From: Planctomycetota bacterium
GTDB taxonomy: Bacteria; Planctomycetota; Planctomycetia; Pirellulales; Pirellulaceae
Length of the DNA stretch: 36,125 bases
Assembly: GCA_963204995.1 (NCBI GenBank)
Contig: CAUJKL010000496.1
Location: forward strand, 1-36,125
Reading direction: 5' to 3'
The position numbers and the translations under genes are program-made. This document shows, piece by piece, positions 6,155-10,455 of this stretch. Position 1 is the first letter of the stretch; each line of letters opens with the position of its first letter. Under the pieces are notes generated by a model. That model had not been told where the DNA came from and did no database searches. It saw only the letters and a program-made list of their open reading frames with translations.

Positions 6155-6283
6155 GAGATTTGTAATTTGAGATTTGTAATTTGAGATTGTGGATTGCACA
6201 GTATCGATGCGATCAAATCTCAAATCTCAGATCTCAAATCTCAAATCTCAAATCTCAAATCTCAGATTTCAGATTTCAAATTA
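6155..6283. repeat. Inverted pair of 7-bp-period arrays between nuoF and nuoG
   Basis: Left arm 6155-6189: GAGATTT GTAATTT GAGATTT GTAATTT GAGATTG. Right arm 6214-6283: CAAATCT CAAATCT CAGATCT CAAATCT x4 CAGATTT CAGATTT CAAATTA, exactly 10 units. Confidence 0.9.
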
Positions 6284-6285
6284 TC

Positions 6286-7899
6286 ATGGCAACTGTAATC
6301 GTAGACGGACAGGAAATTGAACTTGCCGAAGGCGAACGCCTGAATGGCATTCAAGTCGCTGCGCGTGCCGGGGCTGCTGTACCGCATTATTGCTGGCATC
6401 CTGGGCTGACCGTCGTGGCCAGTTGCCGTATGTGTCTGGTCGAGACCGGTCGCCGCGATCCTGCGACAGGCGTGATCACGATGTTACCCAAGCTGGTTCC
6501 CGGCTGCCAGACACCGGCTACCGACGGAACCGTCTTCGTCACCAAGAGCGAGAAAGTCACCGCCGCTCGCGCCATGGTGGAAGAAGATTTGCTGATCCGC
6601 CATCCGGTCGATTGTCCGATCTGTGACAAGGCGGGTGAGTGCTTTCTGCAAGACTATCACTTCGAGCATGGTCGCGACGAGCGGCGGGCCGACTTAAAGC
6701 CCTTTACCAGTCGTCGCCGAGAGCTAGGTGATACGGTCACGCTGTTTGTCGATCGCTGTGTCATGTGTACGCGTTGTGTTCGCTTCACTCGTGAAATCAG
6801 CGGCGACGCCGAACTGATGGTTGTGAATCGCGGTGCTCACGAAGAGATCGATGTCTTTCCGGGCTTCCCACTCGATAACAAGATGTCTGGTAATGTCGTT
6901 GACATCTGTCCCGTTGGTGCGTTAGGTGATCGCGACTTCCTTTACAAGCAGCGTGTCTGGTTCATGGAGAGTCACGACAATGTTTGTGCGGGCTGTTCGA
7001 CGGGTTGTTCGATCAAAGTCGAAGAGAATCAAGACAAAGTCTATCGCCTGAAGCCGCGTGAGAACCCGCACGTGAACCAGTGGTGGATGTGCGATGAAGG
7101 TCGATACGGTTGGAAACATGTTCACGATCCCGCGCGGGTGACGCTGCCTCGTCGTGCCGGTAAAGAAGGCTACGAGAATGTTGAGTGGGCGACACTTCCC
7201 GCCGAGCTCGATGCCAAACTGTCGGCCAGCAAACGAGTTGCGGTCGTGCTGTCACCGCACTTGACCGTGGAAGAAGCCTATCAGTTAGCCAAATATATCC
7301 GCGGCATCGACGAGCAAGCCTTGCTGGTGCTCGGGTCGGTTCCGACCGAAGGCGAGGACGAGAGTTTCCCGAGTGGGTTTACCATTCGCGCCGAGAAATG
7401 TCCGAACCGTCGCGGTGTCGAAGAGGTGGTCGTCGGCATCGCTAAAGAGTTGGTCACGTGGGATGATTTCCTCGGTCGACTGAACGACGAGTCGTTCGAT
7501 GCGGTGTGGGTGACCGGCGGCTACAAGACTGCGTGGAACGACGAAGCGATTGCACAGCAGCTCGCTGCCGTTCCGCTGCTCATCGTTCAAGATACGTTCG
7601 CTTCACCACTGTGGGACGCCGCAACCTATCAATTGCCCGCGGCGACATTCGCGGAACGCGATGGGTCTTACGTGAATCACGCAGATCGATTGCAGTCGTT
7701 CAAGTGGGCGGTGCGGCCACCGGCGGGAGTGACAACTGAAGGACAGCTGTACTGGCGATTACGGAAATCCCAGGGCTTGTATAATTCGCGGGCCGTTCTC
7801 GATGAGTTGACTCGCGAGTTGCTCTACTTCAGTGCTGCAGCCGGAGTCGAGTGTGAGTACGGGATCGATTTGAAAGTAAATCAATTGGCTTCCGTATGA
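6286..7899 (+). CDS. nuoG: NADH-quinone oxidoreductase subunit G (short form, about 537 aa)
   Basis: MATVIVDGQEIELAEGERLNG...; [2Fe-2S] Cys set, HPVDCPICDKAGEC (N5), CVMCTRCVRFTREI (N4), CAGCSTGCSIKV...WWMCDEGR (N7-type). ATG 6286 preferred; the upstream extension in the ORF track is repeat-derived. Confidence 0.93.
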   Translation: MATVIVDGQEIELAEGERLNGIQVAARAGAAVPHYCWHPGLTVVASCRMCLVETGRRDPATGVITMLPKLVPGCQTPATDGTVFVTKSEKVTAARAMVEEDLLIRHPVDCPICDKAGECFLQDYHFEHGRDERRADLKPFTSRRRELGDTVTLFVDRCVMCTRCVRFTREISGDAELMVVNRGAHEEIDVFPGFPLDNKMSGNVVDICPVGALGDRDFLYKQRVWFMESHDNVCAGCSTGCSIKVEENQDKVYRLKPRENPHVNQWWMCDEGRYGWKHVHDPARVTLPRRAGKEGYENVEWATLPAELDAKLSASKRVAVVLSPHLTVEEAYQLAKYIRGIDEQALLVLGSVPTEGEDESFPSGFTIRAEKCPNRRGVEEVVVGIAKELVTWDDFLGRLNDESFDAVWVTGGYKTAWNDEAIAQQLAAVPLLIVQDTFASPLWDAATYQLPAATFAERDGSYVNHADRLQSFKWAVRPPAGVTTEGQLYWRLRKSQGLYNSRAVLDELTRELLYFSAAAGVECEYGIDLKVNQLASV

Positions 7900-9125
7900 T
7901 TGAAACACTCATCAAAATCGCGATTGTGATCGGTGCCCTGATGACGGCCGCCGCCTACTTTGTGCTGCTCGAACGTCGCATGGCGGCTTGGATACAGGAT
8001 CGCGTGGGACCGAATCGTGTTGGCGCGCCGCTGAGCCAGTTGAACAAGAGCTGGAAGGATCTGCGTCTGTTCGGCCTGGGCCAGCCCGCTGCAGACGGCG
8101 TGAAATTCATTTTGAAGGAAGAGTACACGCCGGCGCATGTCGACAAGCGGCTGTTTGTGCTGGCTCCGATCTCGATCCTTGTTGCCGCGTTGGCGACCTT
8201 CGCGGTGATCCCGTTCGGCAGCGTCTTGCCGCCCGGGCTGCTGGGGGACAAACCAATCGAGATGGTGATTTCTCCCGGCGCAGGGGTCGGCATGCTAGTT
8301 GTGTTTGCTCTGTCAAGTATCGCCGTCTACGGAGTGATTCTCGGCGGTTGGGCCAGCAATAACAAATTCAGCTTTCTCGGTGCTTTGCGTTCGAGTGCCC
8401 AGTTAATTGCTTACGAGTTGCCTCTGGGGCTCGGAATTCTCGGTGTAGTTCTGGCGACTGGATCGTTGGATCTGGACAAGATCATTGCCGTGCAGGCGGA
8501 GTCTGGTTGGTGGTTCGCTTTCACACAGCCGCTTGGTTTCTTCGTGTTCTTTGTGGCCGCGTTTGCCGAGGCCGCCCGCTTGCCGTTCGACCTTCCCGAG
8601 TGCGAACAAGAACTGATTGGCGGCTATCACACCGAGTACTCGGGAATCAAGCTGCTGCTGTTTCTCGTGGCCGAATTCTTGCACATGATTGCGGCTTCGT
8701 TCCTGATCGTGATGCTCTTCTTTGGCGGTTGGCACTTTTGGTTCATCACGGGCGCGGACGCTAACCCCGGCTGGGTGCAAGCGATTCTGCGGGTGGCGGT
8801 CCTGATGACCAAGATCTTCGTGGTGATCCTGTTTTTCATGCTCGTCCGCTGGAGTTGGCCACGATTCCGCTTCGATCAACTAATGGCCTTCGCCTGGAAG
8901 GTCATGTTACCGCTAGGGTTGATTAACTTCGTTGCCGTTGCAGTGATCGATCAATTCAAGACGATTTCTGGAAATTCATCGCCCGGGATGGAATTGCTTT
9001 GTGTAGCGGTAGCTTGGGCGGTGTGCATTGTGGCTTGGTTCGGAATCTCGTTTGGGGGACCGCTCGTTGCCGATAACCGTCCGCGCACTGATCTAAATCC
9101 GTTCGACGTGGATTCGCAGATATGA
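7896..9125 (+). CDS. nuoH: NADH-quinone oxidoreductase subunit H
   Basis: LLERRMAAWIQDRVGPNRVG...KFILKEEYTPAHVDKRLFVLAP...AEAARLPFDLPECEQELIGGYHTEYSGIK; ATGA overlap with nuoG. Confidence 0.97.
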   Translation: MIETLIKIAIVIGALMTAAAYFVLLERRMAAWIQDRVGPNRVGAPLSQLNKSWKDLRLFGLGQPAADGVKFILKEEYTPAHVDKRLFVLAPISILVAALATFAVIPFGSVLPPGLLGDKPIEMVISPGAGVGMLVVFALSSIAVYGVILGGWASNNKFSFLGALRSSAQLIAYELPLGLGILGVVLATGSLDLDKIIAVQAESGWWFAFTQPLGFFVFFVAAFAEAARLPFDLPECEQELIGGYHTEYSGIKLLLFLVAEFLHMIAASFLIVMLFFGGWHFWFITGADANPGWVQAILRVAVLMTKIFVVILFFMLVRWSWPRFRFDQLMAFAWKVMLPLGLINFVAVAVIDQFKTISGNSSPGMELLCVAVAWAVCIVAWFGISFGGPLVADNRPRTDLNPFDVDSQI

Positions 9126-9130
9126 ACTCT

Positions 9131-9547
9131 CTAGTCCCAGTATTCAACCTGCAGATTCGGAATCAAATCGAAGTCGGTGCGATTGCGGGAGACCAGCGTC
9201 GCACCGTGTACAACTGCGACGGCGGCAATGCGCAAGTCATGCGTTCCGATACGGATTTTTTGTGTTCGCCAAGTACGAAACAACCGATCGGCGACGTCTG
9301 TGTAGGGCAGGATGTGGAACGCGTTAAGAGACGCTATCGACCTTTGCAGCATCGCGTAGGCTTGGTCCAGCTTTCGGCCTGTTCCGGCCTCGGCACGACG
9401 AACGGCACTCAATCTGCCTCGCAGAACCTCTTCGGCAACCACAATCGGAAGCGACTGCTCTTCGCCGGGAATGGCGACGGCACGGGCCGCATACGTCGGG
9501 GAACCAAAAAACAGCTCCGAGAAGATATCGGCGTCGAAGGTGATCAT
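9131..9547 (-). CDS. PIN-domain ribonuclease toxin (VapC-like)
   Basis: MITFDADIFSELFFG...LPIVVAEEVLRGRL...GTHDLRIAAVAVVHGATLVSRNRTDFDLIPNLQVEYWD; acidic residues at expected PIN positions; ATGA overlap with the upstream partner. Confidence 0.88.
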   Translation of the reverse strand: MITFDADIFSELFFGSPTYAARAVAIPGEEQSLPIVVAEEVLRGRLSAVRRAEAGTGRKLDQAYAMLQRSIASLNAFHILPYTDVADRLFRTWRTQKIRIGTHDLRIAAVAVVHGATLVSRNRTDFDLIPNLQVEYWD

Positions 9548-9834
9548 TCCGGCAACTCGTCCCGTTGCCGATCTCGTTCGGCGTATATCTCGTCGACAAT
9601 TTCACGGAGCGTTGTGTCATCGGCGAACATCCCGATAATTGCGGCAGCCCCCGGTTTCGGCAGATCGACGAAAACGAGTTCGCCGCGAATGACACGCTGT
9701 TCGACTTCGCGCTTCAATGCATCGACAGCCTCATCTCGAGTTGGACGCACAACACTGATTCGGTCGTCACCGAGGAGCTTCGCGGAAAATTGCCCATTGT
9801 CCGGCTCGACAATAACTGGATATGTCATCTTCAC
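9544..9834 (-). CDS. Putative antitoxin, HicB-like N-terminal region, partner of the PIN toxin
   Basis: MKMTYPVIVEPDNGQFSAKLLGDDRISVVRPTRDEAVDALKREVEQRV...; small ORF upstream of and overlapping the PIN gene by ATGA. Confidence 0.75.
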   Translation of the reverse strand: MKMTYPVIVEPDNGQFSAKLLGDDRISVVRPTRDEAVDALKREVEQRVIRGELVFVDLPKPGAAAIIGMFADDTTLREIVDEIYAERDRQRDELPE

Positions 9835-9909
9835 ACCTCACTGACGTGCGCTCCCCCAATTCATTAGCATTGTAGCCGCCGACTGCTACTTCGTAAATCA
9901 GAAAACGCC

Positions 9910-10455
9910 ATGAAAGCCGACGATCCTGACATCAAATGGGTGGAAGAGCCAAAGCTGGGCTTGAGCGGCAAGATGTACGCGCCCATGTTCGTGGAGGGCT
10001 TGACGACGACTTTCAAGCACTTGAAAAAGTCCTTGCAAGGGAAGACCGTGACGGTCAGCTACCCCGACCAAGAACCCAATATTGAGAGTCCGCTGATCTA
10101 TCGCGGCGTGCATCGGTTGAATAAGGACTCGCAAGGTCGCGTCAAGTGCGTCGCCTGCTTCTTGTGTGCCACGGCTTGCCCCGCACATTGCATCGACATC
10201 ATCGGCATCGAGAGCCCTTGGGAAGATCGCGAGAAGTATCCCGAAAGCTTCACGATTGACGAGTTGCGTTGCATCTATTGCGGCATGTGCGAGGAGGCTT
10301 GTCCGGTCGACGCGATCGAGCTGACCAGTCTCTACAACTTGACGGGTCGCAGTCGCGAGGAAATGATCTTCGACAAAGAGAAGCTGCTCAGCGTGTATGA
10401 TGCCACGAAGGACACCGAGCCGATGCGCTCGCCTGGTATGGGAGGGACGGTGTGA
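9910..10455 (+). CDS. nuoI: NADH-quinone oxidoreductase subunit I
   Basis: Two 8Fe ferredoxin motifs: CVACFLCATACPAHC and CIYCGMCEEACPVDA. Confidence 0.96.
   Translation: MKADDPDIKWVEEPKLGLSGKMYAPMFVEGLTTTFKHLKKSLQGKTVTVSYPDQEPNIESPLIYRGVHRLNKDSQGRVKCVACFLCATACPAHCIDIIGIESPWEDREKYPESFTIDELRCIYCGMCEEACPVDAIELTSLYNLTGRSREEMIFDKEKLLSVYDATKDTEPMRSPGMGGTV

Follow-up and report, generated by a model that had tools for sequence, protein, structure and literature searches.

In solved VapBC complexes, the tail of the VapB antitoxin blocks the active site of the PIN toxin. The 2009 survey by Makarova and colleagues described HicA-HicB as a strictly unique pair (PMC2701414). A survey of Synechocystis 6803 lists predicted PIN3-HicB and PIN-HicB pairs, namely sll0624/sll0624a, slr5116/ssr5117, and ssl7007/sll7006 (PMC4963859). 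In the open-access literature, we found no description of a chimeric antitoxin with a HicB front and a PIN-antitoxin tail, or of the exchange of such a front with a coiled coil. Here, we describe a pair of this kind in a 36,125-nucleotide stretch of DNA (the window) from a metagenome-assembled genome (MAG) of the Pirellulaceae, where it lies within the operon for respiratory complex I.

A minus-strand gene pair between nuoH and nuoI

A sequence-only reading of the window had proposed two minus-strand genes overlapping by ATGA, antisense inside the nuo operon between nuoH and nuoI, with the toxin stop 5 bp from the nuoH stop. This picture proved correct. The open reading frames lie at that place and on that strand, nuoH ends at 9125 while the toxin stop codon begins at 9131, and nuoF, nuoG, nuoH, nuoI, nuoJ, nuoK, and nuoL are all intact as judged by Pfam. 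The features of the region are as follows.

7896 to 9125, plus strand: nuoH (PF00146, 355.7 bits), intact, upstream of the insertion
9126 to 9890, no strand assigned: insertion, delimited by comparison with congeners L019 and L020, whose sites are empty; its left boundary falls at the nuoH stop and its right boundary somewhere within about 9855-9890
9131 to 9547, minus strand: predicted VapC-type PIN-domain toxin gene, 138 aa (Pfam, AF2 model, Foldseek, residue conservation)
9544 to 9547, minus strand: ATGA overlap of antitoxin stop (TGA) and toxin start (ATG), read from the sequence
9544 to 9828, minus strand: predicted antitoxin gene, 94 aa, ATG start (hhalign, AF2 model, Foldseek)
9574 to 9657, minus strand: antitoxin residues 58-85, putative tail with conserved G66, D70, and R85 (conservation in homologues)
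9658 to 9828, minus strand: antitoxin residues 1-57, predicted HicB-type strand-strand-strand-helix domain (profile, model, Foldseek)
9836 to 9839, minus strand: GAGG resembling a Shine-Dalgarno site, 7 nt upstream of the antitoxin ATG, read from the sequence
9869 to 9897, minus strand: sigma-70-like promoter match, TTTACG-17-TACAAT
9910 to 10455, plus strand: nuoI (Fer4 families), 94 to 95% identical to congeners, intact, downstream of the insertion

The antitoxin frame would span 9544-9834 on the minus strand if a GTG at 9834 were taken as its start. The GAGG motif is just 1 nt from that GTG and 7 nt from the ATG at 9828, so the ATG is the likelier start. The small partner gene of the earlier reading thus stands, but its length of 96 aa gives way to a likelier 94 aa, and its distance from nuoI, put at about 75 bp, becomes 81 bp with the ATG start. 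The ATGA overlap recurs in homologues L060, L073, L075, L076, L077, and L079, and it may couple translation of the two genes. The promoter match agrees at 9 of 12 positions, with 0.6 such matches expected by chance, and is hence weak. No terminator-like site was seen in the sequence 3' of the toxin gene.

Both genes are full length and carry the Shine-Dalgarno-like site and the overlap. They are not chance open reading frames, because the toxin scores above the Pfam threshold for PIN and because the two recur as a pair in distant genomes. A 240-aa plus-strand frame antisense to the cassette (9122-9844) was considered as a gene and rejected, as it stays open throughout in 0 of 7 homologous cassettes. 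Long open antisense frames are to be expected here, since nuoI also has a fully open one. Elsewhere in the window, an open reading frame extension ahead of nuoG (6181-6285) reads as repeats (NLRSQISNLKSQISDFRFQI), so that a short tandem repeat may lie between nuoF and nuoG.

The toxin resembles VapC

The toxin scored 34.4 bits against the Pfam PIN family PF01850 (cut-off, 23.6), and a profile built with 15 relatives matched solved VapC chains with E values down to 1.3e-12. Its AF2 model has a mean pLDDT of 95.8, and the top Foldseek matches were VapC/FitB proteins (E values down to 2.6e-8), among them VapBC2 of Rickettsia felis, Shigella VapC, and FitB. Residues D5, E40, D104, N122, and D125 are conserved across 37 aligned homologues and are intact in the window toxin. 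The earlier designation as a PIN-domain protein is thereby borne out. We file the toxin as VapC-type, and by analogy with that family it would most likely act as an RNase. A search of phage records with the toxin gave no match, and a phage origin of the cassette was set aside on that basis. PADLOC defense-system annotation likewise gave no match.

The antitoxin appears to be a two-part chimera

The antitoxin appears from profile comparisons to join a HicB-type front to a tail found in the coiled-coil antitoxins of sister PIN toxins. We compared the two halves by hhalign and hmmsearch, with a negative control and shuffled sequences. The antitoxin family aligned with HicB over residues 1-57 at 97.8% probability and with the coiled-coil antitoxins over residues 58-85 at 96.6%; the control comparison of HicB with the coiled-coil antitoxins gave 0.1%. 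Most family members score above shuffled sequences. For the window antitoxin by itself, the tail match reached 17.4 bits (shuffle maximum, 7.0), and the HicB match reached 4.4 bits, under the shuffle maximum of 8.2. The HicB assignment of the window protein rests on the family profile because its own score is weak. A single-sequence Pfam search returned a subthreshold match to DUF2188 and nothing else; the assignment became clearer once 17 relatives were included.

Structural comparisons point the same way for the N-terminal half. The AF2 model shows a strand-strand-strand-helix domain with pLDDT values of about 87 to 96 over residues 1-50, followed by a helical tail that is less certain. The best Foldseek match was the N-domain of a Burkholderia HicB (6g1c; probability 0.97, E value 0.12, TM score below 0.5), with E. 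coli HicB also among the best (E value 0.27); by E value, the fold match is weak. At the family level, the profile also matched HicB proteins best in the PDB, with E values of 0.12 to 0.15.

A profile search of 241 genomes of the same family returned three kinds of match: complete antitoxins of this type, proteins aligned over the first half only, and proteins aligned over the last third only. The first-half matches align through about the first 50 profile positions; those inspected are HicB genes, and those tested adjoin Pfam-confirmed HicA genes. The last-third matches align through about the last 35 positions and are mostly coiled-coil antitoxins, located beside PIN toxins where a full toxin open reading frame was found. 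Neither Pfam nor NCBIfam gave a significant match to a DNA-binding domain (RHH, AbrB, HTH, or Phd) in the antitoxin, and no such domain recurred as a match across the 17 homologues. The sequence-only reading had described the partner as HicB-like at its N terminus and unlike a classical VapB. The contrast with VapB is upheld, and the HicB likeness holds for residues 1-57 but was incomplete, since the last third is the tail common to the coiled-coil antitoxins. Also sustained is the view that a PIN toxin with a HicB-like partner is a noncanonical pairing.

The pairing recurs across phyla

The same pair architecture was found in other Planctomycetota, in Chloroflexota and Cyanobacteriota, in a MAG titled Syntrophobacter, and on a conjugative Nostoc plasmid. 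This spread over several phyla and a plasmid indicates that PIN toxins with HicB-like partners form a genuine subfamily. The closest toxins, about 55% identical, come from MAGs of Pirellulaceae/Planctomycetaceae and Anaerolineae. In a tree of 37 toxins, in which four toxins from this genome and one from a plasmid served as outside PIN toxins, those with HicB-type and coiled-coil-type partners formed one clade (support 100/100) apart from the other sampled PIN toxins. The window toxin falls inside a clade of eight HicB-type toxins (99/95). A single clade for all toxins with a HicB-type partner is compatible with the data (AU test, p 0.53); repeated exchange of HicB-type for coiled-coil antitoxins, or the reverse, was dismissed on this ground. 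By this measure, the pairing of the HicB-type antitoxin with its toxin clade is stable.

One homologous locus, L079, comes from a genome titled Bacteroidales (G646), and transfer to Bacteroidota was considered. That genome has 50 DUF1501 matches and planctomycete-type cytochrome domains; the bin is probably from a planctomycete and wrongly labelled, and we do not trust the title. The genome that carries the window has at least five PIN genes of the sister subfamily with coiled-coil antitoxins (L061, L062, L064, L066, and L067). Three loci, one of them in a congener (L104:1335-1613, reverse-complement coordinates), hold a HicB-type antitoxin or tail and lack a full PIN toxin. In the congener, no PIN gene follows; at L103:1797-2525, the beginning of the toxin leads into a sigma-factor-like open reading frame; the third is L109. 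These orphans are possibly products of decay or anti-addiction remnants.

The nuoH-nuoI junction in relatives

Of 40 relatives surveyed for the junction, 34 yielded a nuoI match at the search threshold, and in 22, not counting this genome, nuoH was adjacent. The cassette is absent in 22 of those 22, with gaps of -4 to 267 bp that are too small to hold it. The genus comprises only three genomes, and the two congeners have nuoH-nuoI gaps of 4 and 16 bp; no close copy of the pair was found elsewhere in either. At the edges of the insert, no target duplication or terminal repeat was recognized, a repeat scan returning chance-level repeats only, and the cassette is unremarkable in base composition.

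Homologous cassettes lie beside unrelated genes. Two (L078:4711-5420 and L079:4705-5420) are in sense orientation, with PSCyt1/PSCyt2/PSD1 genes on one side and DUF1501 genes on the other, and others follow smc (L076), precede a glmS-like gene (L073), or adjoin an MFS gene (L077). At L134 and L147, other small open reading frames fill the space before DUF1501. The nuoH-nuoI gaps of three relatives contain long inverted repeats (L026:1372-1445, L031:1371-1471, and L033:1405-1491), with perfect arms of 25 and 32 nt and arms of 27 nt at 85%. The site therefore accepts insertions in other lineages too.

Origin and meaning of the position

The empty junctions of the 22 relatives and the unrelated neighbors of the homologous cassettes argue for a lineage-specific passenger insertion. 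We hold with good confidence that the cassette is a mobile type II module of the VapBC kind, with a chimeric antitoxin, that inserted antisense between nuoH and nuoI as a passenger. The insertion is known from one MAG, and the simplest account is that a tolerant site between genes received the cassette once, after this lineage and its congeners had separated. An assembly artefact, in which cassette DNA was misjoined into the nuo contig, is scarcely credible: the MAG is fragmented (1093 contigs) with 7.25% contamination, but two false joins would be needed within some 20 bp of intergenic sequence, with nuoH and nuoI both left complete. That the pair is a nonworking remnant, decayed or inactive, is unlikely. 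The family does include orphan antitoxins and truncated toxins in relatives (L103, L104, and L109), and one sister toxin copy in this genome carries an internal stop (C840, L067), whereas the window genes are full length and retain the conserved acidic residues together with the Shine-Dalgarno-like motif and the ATGA overlap.

The sequence-only reading had gone further, suggesting that the layout could couple the toxin/antitoxin balance to transcription of the respiratory operon or make the locus addictive and so protect nuo. The same reading had named a clean nuoHI as the norm in close relatives, with the genes lying elsewhere, as the outcome that would speak against these ideas, and this is what the comparison gave. 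A functional position, in which antisense RNA from nuoI-N read-through tunes the pair or cassette transcripts silence nuoH and growth arrest is tied to respiration, is permitted by the geometry, with 5 bp between the stops and no terminator-like site after the toxin, and would suit an antitoxin that has no recognized DNA-binding domain for autoregulation. We nevertheless judge it quite improbable, as the cassette is missing from the junction in every relative compared, both congeners included, and its homologues adjoin unrelated genes, sometimes in sense. That antisense nuo transcription controls the pair in this lineage, with respiratory gene expression setting the balance, is very improbable. 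Type II modules can stabilize linked DNA, so selection of the cassette because loss of the nuo region becomes costly is conceivable in principle, but respiratory complex I should be kept without an addiction module, the relatives retain nuo without the cassette, and 26 PIN-domain matches are scattered over many contigs of this genome. We regard protection of nuo as highly improbable. The location of the passenger cassette looks accidental.

A tentative mechanism may be outlined for the pair. Antitoxin and toxin would be made from one transcript, with their start and stop coupled at ATGA. The HicB-type domain probably renders the antitoxin dimeric, and the flexible tail, with G66, D70, and R85, probably plugs the PIN active site and neutralizes the toxin, by likeness to VapB tails. 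Regulation would proceed without a classical DNA-binding domain, and transcription of nuo would have to pass through the cassette or restart within it.

The locus is more notable for its chimeric antitoxin than for its address. A HicB domain here serves another class of toxin: it forms an exchangeable front for a tail that in other antitoxins is joined to a coiled coil. This suggests that neutralization is the task of the tail in antitoxins of this type and that the front half merely oligomerizes. The locus also indicates that small toxin-antitoxin cassettes can settle within the complex I operon, even antisense, with no visible damage to neighboring genes.

Comparison with known systems

We file the module as VapBC-like. 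It was not assigned to VapBC proper or to HicAB, because the tests showed it to lack a feature that defines VapBC and a feature that defines HicAB. Like VapBC systems with VapC/FitB PIN toxins, it has a PIN toxin with the acidic residues, an antitoxin gene that comes first, overlapping genes, and an antitoxin whose C terminus is a short conserved tail. The N-domain of its antitoxin is HicB-like, however, where VapBC antitoxins have a domain that binds DNA (RHH, AbrB, Phd, or HTH). With HicAB, it shares homology to HicB over about the first 57 antitoxin residues, a likeness that is weak for the window protein alone. It differs in that the toxin is a PIN protein and not HicA, for which Pfam matches occur only beside the true HicB genes, and in that the antitoxin ends in a PIN-antitoxin tail, where many but not all HicB proteins have RHH or HTH. 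The Synechocystis 6803 pairs likewise combine a PIN toxin with an antitoxin labelled HicB, a likeness drawn from the published listing, in which they are toxin-first (PMC4963859). Related by toxin phylogeny are the pairs of a "hypothetical protein" with a VapC family toxin in Cyanobacteriota and Planctomycetota, which have sister toxins within the 100/100 clade and antitoxins with the common C-terminal tail, but the N-terminal half of those antitoxins is a short coiled coil in place of the HicB fold predicted here.
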